A program made the translations under genes and the position numbers. Positions 11,135-16,850 of a stretch of DNA of 50,113 bases are shown here, one piece after another. Position 1 is the first letter of the stretch; every line of letters starts with the position of its first letter. Location of the stretch: the NCBI GenBank assembly GCA_902826145.1, contig CADEDT010000005.1:1-50113 (forward strand), written 5' to 3'. This DNA is from an uncultured Caulobacteraceae bacterium. GTDB lineage: Bacteria > Pseudomonadota > Alphaproteobacteria > Caulobacterales > Aquidulcibacteraceae. The notes beneath the pieces were generated by a model, which saw nothing but the letters and a program-made list of their open reading frames with translations, had not been told where the DNA came from and searched no databases.

Positions 11135-12309
11135 CTACTCCGCGATAAGCCTGCTTGGCGCGCGGATGGCGTCCGGCGATTGGTTCAGCGCCAATATCTC
11201 CGCAATCAACGATAGAACTGACGAGGAGCGATCCCCCTCCTGCGCGGTGTCGGCGCACCGACCGTCAGGCGCGGCTTCGCCACACGAGCGGCCAATTGCG
11301 GGACCAGCGCGATAGCGCTCCCCGCCGTACGCAACTTCCGCGGTGTAGGGATGATGTGTCGTGTGTCCAGCCGGCACGACACGGAAGAGCGGCACACCGC
11401 GGCCCCCACCGCGAAGGCCCGCGGCGCGCACGGTGACTTGCGCTTCGAGCGACTCGCAAGTTCGGCGTGCGTGCTGTCAGCGCGAAGAAGCTCGCCGACA
11501 TAGTAGACCATGTCGTCCAACGAACGCAGGCGCAGACGGATCGTTGTTTGGCCTACGGCGAACACAGGATCGCAATCGAGACCCGGCGCGGGCTCGACAG
11601 GACGGATCGGTGTTGTCGGACCATACGCGTCGATCAGACCGCAGAGCGGCCGGCCGCGGCGGCGATCGATGCCGCTCTCGCGCGGATGCTCCGCGTCAGT
11701 GATCATGAAGTCACGGACTTCACGGACGAAGTCGCAGCCTTCGGTGCGCACGCTTTCTGGGCAATCCTCGAAGATCGTGTTGGCTTCGTTGACGAAGACA
11801 TGGGTGTGATTGTTGCCGTCGGTCTTCTCGATCTGCTCGACCATCATCAGCAGCAAGAGATCGCGCGGCCAGCCGCTGCGCCAGTAATGCTCGAAGACAT
11901 GCGGCGGCGTTGGGCTGAACGCTGTGCGCGTCAGGGTTTGAGCGTCGAAAGGCTGCACGGCATAGCTCGGGCGCGTCGCGTTTTCGCGCGAGACACCCGC
12001 GCCGGCGACGCCCCACGGCGAACCAATGTCGCCAAGCTGGATATCCCCCAGTGCGGCGCTACGGGTAGTTGTTGAGGACGGGCTATCAGAAATGCCTGTC
12101 ATGGCGAGATAGTAACGCGGGAGCCGGTCGCGGGAGCGTAGGATGTTGAGCAGGATTTGGGCTGAGACCGCCTGCGCGTAGGCCTCGTTGAACGCGACCG
12201 CGTCGTCCGCGATCTGCCGCGTCAGCTGTTCGCGCGACGAGGGAACCGACGTCGCGGTCGCGCAGGACGCCAAAAGGGCGGCCGCGCACGCCGCCAGCAC
12301 CGACCTCAT
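11135..12309 (-). pseudogene. Lipoprotein of unknown function, interrupted by one frameshift
   Basis: The reading frame starting at ATG 12309 (GGAGG upstream) encodes a lipoprotein: MRSVLAACAAALLASC with lipobox LASC, then helices with AVFNEAYAQAVSAQILLNIL-like content and a central segment RDLLLLMMVEQIEKTDG. Up to about residue 285 (SLDDMVYYVGELLRAD) it reads well. After about 11460 that frame becomes arginine- and proline-rich nonsense. The other frame, entered by a one-base slip between about 11450 and 11478, gives SLEAQVTVRAAGLRG, PLFRVVPAG, AEVAYGGERYRAGP and DRSSSVLSLIAEILALNQSP, a sensible C-terminal domain ending at 11135. So the gene is about 390 codons with one indel, either real or a sequencing error. 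It is divergent from the carbonic anhydrase gene. Family function is unknown to me. Confidence 0.7.
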
Positions 12310-12382
12310 ATTCCCTCCTCCAAAGCGCGCCGAGCTTGCCTGCTTGGTTGACGGCGCCAAGCAGGTTCGCTTGAAGGACGCC

Positions 12383-12988
12383 ATGGAGCACCTCATCGAG
12401 GGGTACCGCGTCTATCGCGAGACGCGCTGGCCCGAACTCCGCAGTCTGCATCAGTACCTAGCCAAGCGCGGGCAGGCGCCTAAGACGCTGGTGATCGCCT
12501 GCGCCGATAGCCGCGTCGACCCGGCGACGATCTTCAACGCCGGGCCGGGCGAGCTTTTCGTAGTCCGCAACGTCGCAAACCTGGCGCCGCCGTTCGAAGA
12601 GGCGCCAGGTTTTCACGGGGTCAGTGCAGCGATCGAGTTTGCCGTGAAGCAACTCAAGGTCGACACCATCCTGGTGCTGGGCCACGCCCAGTGCGGCGGC
12701 GTAGCGGCGGCTTTGGAGGATCGTCCGCGCGATCCACACTCCTTCCTCGACGCGTGGATCAGCCTTCTGGACACGGCCAAGGCGCGCATCCCTGAAGGCG
12801 GCGACCGCCTCTCCGAACTCGAGCACGAGAGCATCCGGGTGACGCTCGAGAACCTTGCCACATTTCCGTTCATTCAGGATGCCATCAAAACGCGCGGGCT
12901 TAACCTTATCGGCATGCGCTATGGCGTGGCTGATGGCGGGCTTGAGCTACTGGATACAGTTACTGGCGCCTTCGAACCGGTGCTTTGA
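12383..12988 (+). CDS. Beta-class carbonic anhydrase
   Basis: A 201-residue enzyme catalysing reversible CO2 hydration in the cytoplasm. All beta-class residues are present: C40-A-D42-S-R44 (zinc ligand Cys and the Asp/Arg dyad), and H101-A-Q-C104-G-G, which completes the zinc site. Other family motifs are ELFVVRNVANLAPP (57-70) and GFHGVSAAIEFAVKQL (77-92). The ATG at 12383 is used because it opens the usual N-terminal helix (EHLIEGYRVYRETRWPEL). The frame stays open upstream to 12188, but that part lies over the divergent lipoprotein gene. A GC-rich hairpin at 13005-13031 follows. This looks functional. In heterotrophs such enzymes supply bicarbonate for carboxylases and carbamoyl-phosphate synthesis. 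Confidence 0.95.
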   Translation: MEHLIEGYRVYRETRWPELRSLHQYLAKRGQAPKTLVIACADSRVDPATIFNAGPGELFVVRNVANLAPPFEEAPGFHGVSAAIEFAVKQLKVDTILVLGHAQCGGVAAALEDRPRDPHSFLDAWISLLDTAKARIPEGGDRLSELEHESIRVTLENLATFPFIQDAIKTRGLNLIGMRYGVADGGLELLDTVTGAFEPVL

Positions 12989-13004
12989 CGCGAATTCACA
13001 GTAT

Positions 13005-13031
13005 TGCCGCGCGTACCCCAGTGGCGCGGCA
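13005..13031 (+). terminator. Possible terminator after carbonic anhydrase
   Basis: TGCCGCGC (13005-13012) and GCGCGGCA (13024-13031) form a perfect 8-bp stem with an 11-nt loop, 17 bases after the stop. It is followed by GTTGTTCC, so the T-tract is poor. Confidence 0.45.
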
Positions 13032-13088
13032 GTTGTTCCGTGGTATTGCGGACACGGGTGGTGACTGGAACGGGGCGCAGGAGACGTC

Positions 13089-14747
13089 ATGGCGGACGTG
13101 CTCATCGTATGTGTCCGTGAGGACGAGCCGCAGGCGAAGGCGCTTGCGGACATGTTCGAGGCTGCCGGTTTTTCAATCGGCGGAGCGCCTTCGAGCGATG
13201 GCGCACTGCGCTCGAGCGGCGCCGGCGTCGTGGTCTGGTCGCAGGCCTCAATCCGCTCGCGGCCTTTCCTTGATGCCGCTCAGCGCGTCATCAACGCCGA
13301 CAAAGCCGTTGTCGCCAGCCTGATCGAACCGCCGCCGCCGTCGAGCATCGGTTCATCGCCCGCTTTCGATCTCTCACGCTGGGATGGCGATCCGAACGAT
13401 CCCGCGCTCGATCCCCTCTTCTTCGCCGTCGACCGCATGGTGAACACAGCGCGCGCCGGTGTTGGCGCCGCGCAGCGTGAGACGCGCGATTACGATCCGC
13501 CGCCGTCGACCCGCGCGCCAATCCGCGCCGAGCCGCCGCCGCGCCGTCAAGAGCCGGCGTACCGCGCGCCGCCGCCGGAGCCGCCGCCAAGCTATCGCGT
13601 ACCGCCGTCATCAGACCCGCTTGGCTCTGAAGCCGAGCACTGGCGCGCCATCCGGGACAGCCGCAACCCGTCCGACTTCATGGACTACCTTGCCCGCTAC
13701 GGCCCAGACGGCGCGTTCTCTGAAGTCGCCGAGCTTCGTCTGAAGCAACTCACCGGCCCGGGCGACGTGCGCATGCCGGCGGCGCCTTCGCGGCCTCCCG
13801 TGCGCCAATCACCGCCAGCGCCACGTGCTGAAGCGCCGCCACAGCGCCGCGCCGAGGCGCTGCCGCCAACGCAACGCCGCGCCGAGCCGCCGCCGCCAAG
13901 CCGGCGTCCACCGATCGAGCGCGACTACGCACGCGATCTGCGCGATCCGCCGAAGGGTGAAGGCGGCCCACTGCGTGCGTTCATCCTGATTGCGCTGCTT
14001 GGCGGCGCGGCCCTCGCCGGCGGCCTCTATTTCGGTGGCGGCCTGGGTAATTCCACGCCCCGCCAGGAGCCTGCGGCGGTTGAAAGCGCACCTGCGCCAG
14101 CCAGCGACGAAAGTAGCTTCTCTGAACTCGAAGAAGCGCCGAGCGTGCCCCTTTCGCAGGCCGTGACTTCGCAGCCCGATCGCCAAGCACAAGCACGAGA
14201 GCGCGAACGCGAGAGAGAGCGCGAGCGGGAACGTGCGCGCCAGCAAGCGCAACGCGAAGAAACGCCGCCGTCGCGGATCATCGAACGCAATCAGCCGCCC
14301 GCGGCGACCAATACGCAGACCGCGAGCTCATCCAGTGGCGGGCCCGTGCCGCTGTCGCCGAACCAAGGCGCAGTGCCGGTACCGCCCATCACGTCCCAGC
14401 CGACGCAAACCGCAAGCGTCGAGCCATCGATCACGGGCGCAACGCCGCAGCGCGCGGCTGGGTCGGTCGTTTGGACCTCTCGTCCGTCCGCGCGACGGAT
14501 TGCAGAGCTCTATCCTGAGCGCGCGTCGCGCGATGGCCTTGGTGGCCGCGTGGCGCTCGACTGCCGGGTACAGGGCGACCTTTCAGTTGCCTGTTCCATC
14601 GCGTCGGAAACGCCAGCGGGCTTCGGCTTCGGCCGAGCGGCACTGTCTGCGTCAAGCGCCTACCGCGCGCGCGGTACGTTGTCCGACGGCTCAAGCGCCG
14701 TCGGCTCAAGCGCCCGCATCGTCGTGGCGTTCCAAGCGCCGCAATAG
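13089..14747 (+). CDS. TIR-like / TonB C-terminal domain fusion membrane protein
   Basis: A 552-residue protein with unusual architecture. Residues 1-122 look like a TIR-type flavodoxin fold (ADVLIVCVREDEPQAKALAD, GFSIGG, GVVVWSQASIRSRPFLDAAQ, KAVVASLIE). The usual catalytic Glu of TIR NADases, expected after S-x-W, is not seen (SRPFLDAAQ). Residues 130-180 are Pro-rich. Residues 184-221 (EHWRAIRDSRNPSDFMDYLA to ELRLKQL) match the short W-x-x-I-x-x-S-x-x-x-x-D-F element found next to effector domains. Residues 222-295 are Pro/Arg-rich. Residues 297-316 span the membrane. A linker with an Arg-Glu repeat (369-383) follows. Residues 457-552 resemble the TonB C-terminal domain (IAELYPERASRDGLGGRVAL). 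The TIR-like part would be cytoplasmic and the TonB part periplasmic. AGGAG precedes the ATG. No ExbB/ExbD is nearby. Confidence 0.75.
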   Translation: MADVLIVCVREDEPQAKALADMFEAAGFSIGGAPSSDGALRSSGAGVVVWSQASIRSRPFLDAAQRVINADKAVVASLIEPPPPSSIGSSPAFDLSRWDGDPNDPALDPLFFAVDRMVNTARAGVGAAQRETRDYDPPPSTRAPIRAEPPPRRQEPAYRAPPPEPPPSYRVPPSSDPLGSEAEHWRAIRDSRNPSDFMDYLARYGPDGAFSEVAELRLKQLTGPGDVRMPAAPSRPPVRQSPPAPRAEAPPQRRAEALPPTQRRAEPPPPSRRPPIERDYARDLRDPPKGEGGPLRAFILIALLGGAALAGGLYFGGGLGNSTPRQEPAAVESAPAPASDESSFSELEEAPSVPLSQAVTSQPDRQAQARERERERERERERARQQAQREETPPSRIIERNQPPAATNTQTASSSSGGPVPLSPNQGAVPVPPITSQPTQTASVEPSITGATPQRAAGSVVWTSRPSARRIAELYPERASRDGLGGRVALDCRVQGDLSVACSIASETPAGFGFGRAALSASSAYRARGTLSDGSSAVGSSARIVVAFQAPQ

Positions 14748-14786
14748 GCCCCACGCGCCTCGCAGCTCGCGCAGTCGTTCTGCGCG

Positions 14787-16754
14787 TTAGCGCGTCAGAC
14801 GCAAAGCGCCGATTCCGCTCCCGATCGCGTCGAACGCGGCAGAGAGTTCAGCTGCGTTGTTCGCATTGAAGAAGTGATCAGAGTCGGTCGCGCAGCTGCG
14901 CATCACGCTTTCATCACCGTCGCGGAAACGCACCACGTAAATCTCAATGCCGGCATTCTTGATCGCCGTGCACAGAGCGCGCTGCCGGTTGTTGACGTAG
15001 CTGATGTATTCGTTCTCGGAATCGATGTCGCGGCGCAGCTCCGGCGGCAACAGCCCGTGCAGGATGCCGAACAGAAGTTGCGTGATCAGGTTGCCCTGGG
15101 CGTAGTTGCGCCAGAAGCCGCGGTAGTTGTAGGCGGCGTAGTCGCTTTCCATGACGGCATCGGTCCCGACGTTGGTGTTCTCACCATCCGACATCAACAC
15201 GATCACCTTGCGAACGTTCGGGCCGTAGGCCTCGCCCTCAGTGAACGGCGCCGTCGGCGAGAGCACGCGCCAACCCCAAGCCAAACCTTCGGCTTGGTTT
15301 GTACCGCCGCCCATCCAATGCTGCATCGCTGAGATATTCGTCTGGATTGTGCTCTCCGCCGATGTCAGCGGCACGATTGGCGTCGGGCAACCACGGTTCG
15401 GCGTGCGCGTGTCCGGCGCACTTGTATCGATCGAGGCGTTCGCAGCACGATACTTGAACACATTGAAGAACCGCGCTTCGCGCTGCTCCTGCGCCGAAGG
15501 GCTGCCGAGCAGCGGATTGGTGTTGCCCATCGTAACTGCCGTGGAGTGGCTGTTCCGCACGGAGCCAGCCACGCCGCTGCTGCCATTGTTGTCGCGATAG
15601 CGCGTCGTGCTGCGCAAATTGCCTTGCGTGTCAGCAATGTAAGACTGGCTGTTGTTGCGATAGTTTGGGTCGCCCGAGTTGTTCGAATTGCTTTGGTTCG
15701 CGTCGCCGCCGGTGTCGAGCCAGAAGAATGGCACGAACATGGACGAGGGATCGTTCGGGTTCGGAGCGGCATCGTTGATATCGTACGGCTCTGGTCGCGC
15801 TTCGACGCAACCCTTCCAATCAACGCCGATGAGATTGAACAGCGTGAAGTGGTTGATGCCGTCGCCGGCAACATTTGGGTCATCATCCGGCGTAAAGGCA
15901 AAGCAACGTTGCTGAAGCAATGTGCCGCCACGACGCCAGACCACGCGATACGGGCCCGGATAGCTCTGATCACCTGCCGTCTGCGGATTCTCGAAATACG
16001 GGCGCGTACTCAGCGCTTGGCAATCAGCGCCAGTGTAGGCGTTGTTGGTCTGTTCAGTGCCGCTTGTATCGATCGCGCGATATCCTAGCAGGCGATCCTC
16101 AAAGAGCTCGCCGTTGTATGGCGCGTTGCCGGCCACATCCATCCAAGGCATGCGACTAGGCTGGTTGCCGATATTCACCTGCGCCACGAAGGGCACCAAA
16201 GCGATACGCACGGTGTCGCCATCAAGCGACAACAGATCTGTGGCGAGTTGGGAGGCAGCGCTGCGCAGCGCGCCCATGTCGTTCGCCATCGACCCGGTGT
16301 TGTCCAACACGAGCGCGACCTCAATTGGCGGACTTGCGTTGGCCTGAGCCTCGGCTTCAACGCCGATTACCCAGTCGCGGTTGTTGATGATGCGCGCCAA
16401 GGAAACTGGCATCGGCGCCGTGGCTTCGACGCGGTGGCCGCCCTCATCGAGCTGACGGACGTTGAATGTAACGCTGCCGACCATGTCGCCCACTTCGGCG
16501 TCGAAGAAGGCGCGTGCGGCGGCAGTCCGGGCCGCCATGGACAAGTTGGAGCTCCGTTCGGCCACCAGGGCAGCGCCATCTGCGGCGTTCTGCATGGCGT
16601 TGCGGATGGCCTGCGCGCGCGTGAAGTCGACGGTGAGACCGACCAGGCCGATCAGCACCGTACCCATTAGCGCCCACATCATCGCGACGTTGCCGCCTCG
16701 ATCGCGCAACATGGCGCGCCGTGAACGCGTCGTGGTGAACCGCCCGATAACCAT
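14787..16754 (-). CDS. TadG-like Flp pilus assembly protein with von Willebrand A domain
   Basis: A 655-residue membrane-anchored protein. The N-terminus (RDRGGNVAMMWALMGTVLIG, then LVGLTVDFTRAQAIRNAMQN and AADGAALVAE) is the TadE/TadG prepilin-like anchor, with one transmembrane helix. A von Willebrand A domain begins at about 145 with the metal-site motif LVLDNTGSM (D151-x-T-x-S155). Further parts are TVRIALVPFVAQVNIG, a long Asn-rich insertion around 330-390, and KVIVLMSDGENTNVG, which completes the metal site. The C-terminal motif IKNAGIEIYVVRFRDGDESV is typical. ATG 16754 is preferred over an upstream TTG. TadG proteins belong to tight-adherence pilus machinery, but no other tad gene is in the window, so this is an orphan copy. 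Surface or periplasmic adhesion is a plausible role. Confidence 0.85.
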   Translation of the reverse strand: MVIGRFTTTRSRRAMLRDRGGNVAMMWALMGTVLIGLVGLTVDFTRAQAIRNAMQNAADGAALVAERSSNLSMAARTAAARAFFDAEVGDMVGSVTFNVRQLDEGGHRVEATAPMPVSLARIINNRDWVIGVEAEAQANASPPIEVALVLDNTGSMANDMGALRSAASQLATDLLSLDGDTVRIALVPFVAQVNIGNQPSRMPWMDVAGNAPYNGELFEDRLLGYRAIDTSGTEQTNNAYTGADCQALSTRPYFENPQTAGDQSYPGPYRVVWRRGGTLLQQRCFAFTPDDDPNVAGDGINHFTLFNLIGVDWKGCVEARPEPYDINDAAPNPNDPSSMFVPFFWLDTGGDANQSNSNNSGDPNYRNNSQSYIADTQGNLRSTTRYRDNNGSSGVAGSVRNSHSTAVTMGNTNPLLGSPSAQEQREARFFNVFKYRAANASIDTSAPDTRTPNRGCPTPIVPLTSAESTIQTNISAMQHWMGGGTNQAEGLAWGWRVLSPTAPFTEGEAYGPNVRKVIVLMSDGENTNVGTDAVMESDYAAYNYRGFWRNYAQGNLITQLLFGILHGLLPPELRRDIDSENEYISYVNNRQRALCTAIKNAGIEIYVVRFRDGDESVMRSCATDSDHFFNANNAAELSAAFDAIGSGIGALRLTR

Positions 16755-16850
16755 TTTTCGCCCCAAAAACGGACCTTTAGACAGTCCGCTTGGGTATCAG
16801 ATTGCGCTTAATACGAGATTTTAGAACTTGGTGAACGGAACCGAATTCGC

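Follow-up and report, generated by a model that had tools for sequence, protein, structure and literature searches.

The window analysed here, a stretch of 50,113 nucleotides, is contig 5 of a 3.6-Mb genome that comprises 270 contigs and is 92% complete. It contains a gene for a protein in which a degenerate TIR domain, a W-x-x-I helical element (W element), a membrane helix and a TonB C-terminal (TonB-C) domain follow one another (Table 1). Homologue searches yielded 274 family members at E ≤ 1e-3, some of which are annotated as energy transducer TonB. Alignment A1 contains the window protein, 94 of 120 listed homologues and one paralogue; counts over 95 members are those of A1 minus the paralogue. 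Since Met 1 is kept in 92 of the 95 members and the open frame extends upstream by eight codons only (560 versus 552), the annotated start looks right.

Table 1 Features of the TIR/TonB-C locus. Positions are those of the window; residues are those of the encoded protein.
Feature	Residues	Position	Strand	Basis or remark
Beta-carbonic anhydrase, conserved upstream neighbour		12377..12988	+	synteny
GGAG, possible ribosome-binding site		13080..13083	+	sequence; inference
TIR/W-element/membrane-helix/TonB-C protein gene	552 plus stop	13089..14747	+	ORF and homologues
Degenerate TIR domain	1-122	13089..13454	+	fold comparison, alignment
Ala63 codon, catalytic-Glu column	63	13275..13277	+	Glu in 36/36 TIR domains with the full WD/BB-loop stretch
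W-x-x-I helical element	177-222	13617..13754	+	caspase- and TIR-associated elsewhere
Membrane helix, predicted, Gly-rich, no His	294-315	13968..14033	+	prediction, alignment
Arg-Glu-repeat helix, outer linker	365-390	14181..14258	+	variable among relatives
TonB C-terminal domain	456-552	14454..14744	+	fold comparison, alignment
Tad/VWA-domain protein, conserved convergent downstream neighbour		14787..16766	-	synteny

Scans of the interval 12900-14900 found neither promoters (0.2 expected by chance) nor terminators (1.5 expected by chance), a result that carries no information. An overlapping frame at 12985-13323 is conserved in relatives, but less so than the TIR frame, which accounts for the signal; the overlapping frame was therefore rejected as a gene. 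Two sets of database matches were also discarded: a PDB sequence search with the protein returned ephrin-receptor rows alone (E 0.08-0.12), which were taken as chance, and two NCBIfam splicing-factor models (E 4-7) that fall on the Arg-Glu repeat were ignored.

Distribution and gene block

The homologue search proposed with the original prediction revealed that the architecture is conserved, within a conserved gene block, in six genera of one Caulobacterales family (g1, g2, g8, g159, g160 and g161). Named homologues include Hyphomonadaceae, Terricaulis, Vitreimonas flagellata and 'Candidatus Viadribacter manganicus'; in the accessible part of PMC12700997, Terricaulis and Vitreimonas are placed in a clade proposed as the family Aquidulcibacteraceae. 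In the window's genus, 25 of the 30 sampled genomes carry a full match to the N-terminal domain; one of the remaining five is matched over residues 1-64 only, and four show no match. The frame spans at least 551 residues in 21 of the 25 carriers. The copies of G005 and G018 end at a contig edge (inferred for G018 from its twin L023), and in G024 and G014 the frame is interrupted between the W element and TonB-C, with TIR, W element and TonB-C all remaining. Fourteen of the 16 named loci feature the three modules in a single frame of 539-570 residues, and the other two end at a contig edge. The 29 other genomes of the family contain eight intact copies and a ninth that is split over two contig ends.

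A carbonic anhydrase gene is found upstream in all 16 named loci and in 8 of 10 further loci (none was found at L186 and L051). The Tad/VWA gene is found downstream in 14 of the 16, both misses falling at contig ends. These counts exclude L025 and L026, which show TonB-C similarity only. Carbonic anhydrase was considered as a functional partner and set aside, as other flanking genes are conserved too and the block may simply be inherited. The neighbourhood consists of carbonic anhydrase, Tad/VWA and Band 7 genes; it is not of the conflict type and includes no defence island. The locus looks like a vertically inherited, housekeeping-like block, so that little about function can be read from the neighbours, and the conserved synteny makes a mobile origin unlikely.

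Two minor observations concern the surrounding genes. The window ORF at 11206-12396 (minus strand) is matched by relatives to about residue 312 only, and its end looks like another frame. A contig titled Hydrogenophilaceae (L025, JACAEE010000095.1) carries a TonB-C end followed, as in the window, by Tad/VWA and Band 7 genes, and is probably a mislabelled or mixed assembly.

The TIR domain and its active-site region

The N-terminal domain had been described as TIR-like, and when modelled with its relatives it indeed matches the TIR fold, with animal adaptor-TIR structures among the matches. Its PF13676 (TIR_2) score, 16.1 bits, is below the curated Pfam cut-off of 28, and in a model built from the family only, TIR and receiver domains are tied. 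Searched alone, the domain matches intact TIRs from the same genome at 35% identity (E 9e-7); together, this match and the model that includes relatives rule out a chance resemblance.

Fifty-nine TIR domains were aligned, the 40 TIR paralogues having been chosen by hand from the own-genus list of N-domain matches. The catalytic column was set from what we take to be the W-x3-E position of SARM1-type TIRs. The full ten-residue WD/BB-loop stretch is present in 36 of the 59 domains, and Glu occupies the catalytic column in each of the 36. Seventeen further rows, those of the window family and of nine shorter paralogues, have either no loop residue or one, and no Glu; six other odd TIR domains include one with Glu. 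The window TIR retains none of the ten loop residues, and all 95 family members have Ala in the catalytic column, in agreement with the earlier remark that the usual catalytic Glu is not evident. We infer that the window TIR is devoid of NADase activity.

Sequence conservation is unevenly distributed along the protein. Mean identity to the window protein (94 homologues of 120 listed) is 94% in the TIR domain and 91% in the W element, compared with 85% in the helix region, 70% in TonB-C and 32% in the outer linker. Ratios of pN/pS, which are uncorrected proportions (pS 0.45-0.76) from 10 codon comparisons of chosen loci, range from 0.048 to 0.089 in the TIR domain, from 0 to 0.156 in the W element, from 0.090 to 0.467 in the membrane helix, from 0.238 to 0.530 in TonB-C and from 0.469 to 0.841 in the outer linker. 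By these measures constraint is greatest in the TIR domain and the W element, both of which are under strong purifying selection. The low pN/pS values in both exclude the view that the TIR is a neutral remnant.

The strong constraint would also suit a TIR that is still an enzyme, its active site rebuilt around another acidic residue such as Asp62, which adjoins the lost Glu column and is invariant in the 96-row alignment. However, the WD/BB-loop stretch is deleted too, and Asp62 is not kept in other genera (Ser in L051, Glu in L179); we regard a rebuilt active site as highly improbable.

In a tree of 72 domains, 14 TonB-type and nine short degenerate domains group together (96/85), and the short domains probably arose inside the TonB-type group. 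Having few columns (130), this tree is suggestive only; its bootstrap is unsettled and its root serves for drawing only. Paralogues that are shorter, evolve fast and share the degenerate TIR were recorded at L027:4761-5723, L045-L050, L125 and L126, with no TonB-C end in those read. Other odd, degenerate TIR-like domains that do not feature the BB-loop stretch occur at L128, L129, L130, L131 and L132, and some of them precede Sel1-like repeats.

The W-x-x-I element and the TIR repertoire

The short W-x-x-I element had been called effector-associated, and its company in other proteins bears this out. It was detected in 21 of 142 sampled alphaproteobacterial genomes, the own genome included, at E ≤ 0.05, a threshold at which the weakest rows may be chance. 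Ten of the 11 distinct motif-bearing ORFs among 29 loci (L054-L082) were scanned with Pfam; nine contain a caspase domain, which precedes the element in all nine. Within the order, 46 of 249 genomes carry the element (E ≤ 1e-3). Of 48 rows from the order search, 14 proteins (L168-L181) were inspected by eye, 8 of them drawn from the 19 rows that do not belong to the TonB-type family; in every one the element is preceded by a TIR or a degenerate TIR. Nine of these ORFs and L051 were scanned with Pfam. All six scanned W-element proteins that have no TonB-C contain an intact-type TIR, and four of the six feature an FGE-sulfatase domain.

TIR-W-helix-FGE proteins of Caulobacterales (L168, L170, L172 and L173) are a grouping made here, for which no published name was found. 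They resemble the window protein in the order of TIR, W element, Pro-rich linkers, membrane helix and outer domain; unlike it, their TIRs keep both the BB loop and Glu, and the outer domain is an FGE-sulfatase. Such a layout suggests an effector inside the cell and a ligand-binding domain outside. Because the W element follows caspases and, in relatives, links an intact TIR to a membrane helix and an FGE-sulfatase, we read the window protein as receptor-type: it looks like a TIR-adaptor-membrane-sensor receptor in which the TIR has turned into a scaffold and TonB-C serves as the outer module.

That small adaptor domains are common to effectors is a published idea (PMC7159879, PMC8195603 and PMC10907252, as far as their text is accessible), which the TIR and caspase company of the W element fits; this W element is not mentioned in the accessible text of the three papers. 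The available sections of PMC8195603 also propose FGS domains as invader sensors. Effector-associated-domain/FGS conflict systems, as outlined in the accessible parts of PMC7159879 and PMC8195603, share with the window protein a small helical adaptor next to TIR/caspase effectors and a ligand-binding outer module. They differ in that the window protein has no STAND or MoxR core and no second W element, and its TIR is degenerate; TonB does not occur in the text of either paper.

The own genome contains no second W element, the single match at E ≤ 10 being the own gene, so no partner is in sight for a pairing of W elements in trans. A single caspase-like match exists in the genome, at L203 (G000 contig 116), and the W element was not found in it. 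By eye, L195 (G000 contig 85) encodes an intact TIR, a membrane helix and an FGE-like end, apparently with no W element.

TIR domains are numerous in this lineage. The own genome (3.6 Mb) has 19 TIR_2 matches, 18 of which score above the Pfam cut-off. Counted as matches at E ≤ 1e-3, a few of which are under the cut-off, there are 8-25 per genome in 30 genomes of the genus and 0-10 in 24 sampled genomes from other families of the order. Among the 29 other genomes of the family, the nine carriers of the TonB-type gene have 9-21 matches each, and the 20 non-carriers have 0 (seven genomes), 1 (six), 2 (three), 5, 7, 12 or 21, with a median of 1. The rank test for this difference (p 1.2e-4) ignores descent, by which the association is confounded. 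Two non-carriers, G306 (21) and G336 (12), are TIR-rich, and active TIRs therefore do not require the TonB-type protein. One TIR match of the own genome (L198, G000 contig 10) ends an ORF whose start is, by eye, like a retron-type reverse transcriptase.

The large TIR repertoire, the caspase link of the W element and the layout common to TIR-W-helix-FGE proteins would all be expected of an anti-phage or conflict receptor, in which TonB-C would sense an envelope attacker and the TIR end would trigger death or dormancy through partners. We nevertheless consider this role unlikely, as the gene sits in a conserved core locus with no defence neighbours and its TIR is strongly conserved rather than variable. 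Moreover, none of the anti-phage models of PADLOC-DB 2.0.0 matched the protein at E ≤ 10.

TonB-C, topology and possible roles

The C-terminal domain matches the TonB-C fold, and one membrane helix is predicted, so that both remaining modules of the original prediction stand. The helix contains G-x3-G in 92 of the 95 members and His in none. The proposed split between compartments is likewise supported: all 95 members have more Lys and Arg on the N side of the helix, a charge bias that predicts a cytoplasmic TIR and a periplasmic TonB-C. Two cysteines of TonB-C (Cys 492 and Cys 502), present in all 95, are in keeping with a periplasmic disulfide.

Four ExbD matches were found in the own genome, on contigs 55, 56 and 70, and none on contig 5. 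On contig 55 (L183), an ExbB-like gene and two ExbD genes accompany three tandem TonB-like genes, in which, by eye, a membrane His is not evident either. These data bear on an alternative role, in which ExbB/ExbD would drive the protein as a dedicated energy transducer of the TonB type and the TIR would regulate or anchor it from the inner side. The TonB-C fold, the Pro-rich linkers, the single membrane helix and the naming of relatives as energy transducer TonB speak for this role; TonB energy transducers (PF03544) have the same fold, linker type and helix number. Unlike them, the window protein carries a large N-terminal TIR and W part, has no membrane His and has no ExbD gene on its contig. 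According to the accessible text of PMC12204202, motor contact requires the SHLS motif with its His, but the absence of His in 95 of 95 members is a weak test and not decisive against energising, since the ExbD-linked TonB-like genes also seem to have none. In addition, TonB-like proteins in general have no cytoplasmic domain, as stated in the part of PMC8262864 that is available. We regard the transducer role as improbable. The original prediction left open whether the protein would sense or drive outer-membrane traffic, and driving is the weaker option because there is no ExbD on the contig and no His in the helix. A signalling use of a related domain is on record: VreA of Pseudomonas aeruginosa (PMC2729926, available sections) has a TolA/TonB-like C-terminal domain and acts in cell-surface signalling, not in energising. 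VreA differs in that it has no TIR but an STN-type N-domain and is for the most part a soluble periplasmic protein.

A structural part in the envelope may also be considered, in which TonB-C would hold a partner in the outer membrane or the wall, with the TIR serving only as a dimer module in the cytoplasm. A precedent is SjdR of Anabaena, a TonB-like membrane protein with a non-transport role, needed for septal structures; in the accessible part of PMC8262864, it has a GltJ/AgmX-like region and no TIR is mentioned. The status of a core gene and the Gly-rich helix would suit a tether or organiser, and the title of one reference indicates that the lineage has prosthecate or budding relatives. 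Yet most of the constraint falls on TIR and W element rather than on the outer part, which a mere anchor would not need, and a purely structural part seems improbable.

We tentatively propose that the protein is receptor-like and resides in the inner membrane, where its inactive TIR would act as a scaffold that reports the state of the outer membrane, via TonB-C, to other TIRs. The 18 TIR domains above the cut-off in the genome underlie this proposal, and the same layout with an intact TIR and an FGE-sulfatase in four scanned relatives supports it. TonB-C would touch outer-membrane receptors at their TonB boxes, or else a different partner in the envelope; a change at this contact would alter clustering through the Gly-rich helix and the W element, and the TIR surface would then recruit, hold or block active TIR proteins. 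The simplest reading of an effector domain that has no active site and is joined to TonB-C as an outer module is an adaptor that would assemble with other TIR proteins through its TIR and W element. Against the scaffold proposal stand the five genus genomes that have no full N-domain match and the two interrupted carrier frames, as well as the housekeeping-like locus, the lack of a PADLOC match and the absence of an evident partner at either end. In a stronger form, which we hold to be quite doubtful, the dead TIR would be a master switch: TonB-C would sample TonB-dependent receptors, and their engagement by phage, bacteriocin or a failing transporter would change clustering and release or recruit active TIRs. 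If true, this would give bacteria an outer-membrane alarm whose construction resembles that of a Toll receptor.

MyD88 and MAL are scaffold TIR adaptors of animals that use the TIR fold for assembly and not for catalysis. Adaptor TIRs of this kind are familiar in animals, and bacterial TIR work has been mostly on enzymes. The window protein resembles MyD88 and MAL by fold only, its use in assembly being our reading, and they have no part corresponding to the membrane helix and TonB-C. A TIR that has lost its catalytic parts but is more constrained than the rest of the protein, in a genome with about ten or more other TIRs, would be a bacterial TIR adaptor, and its fusion to TonB would physically couple receptors of the outer membrane to TIR signalling in the cytoplasm.

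The architecture had been put forward as undescribed, and no report of a TIR-TonB fusion protein was found in the open full-text literature, a body of text that leaves most subscription journals outside and the absence unproven. The joining of a degenerate TIR to TonB-C is new in this sense, whereas systems akin to a receptor-like TIR with an outer sensor domain have been proposed. TonB-C itself also occurs in other settings. Two loci (L005 and L007) encode small proteins with a signal-peptide-like start and little beyond TonB-C, which suggests that this domain is a freely used periplasmic module in the lineage.
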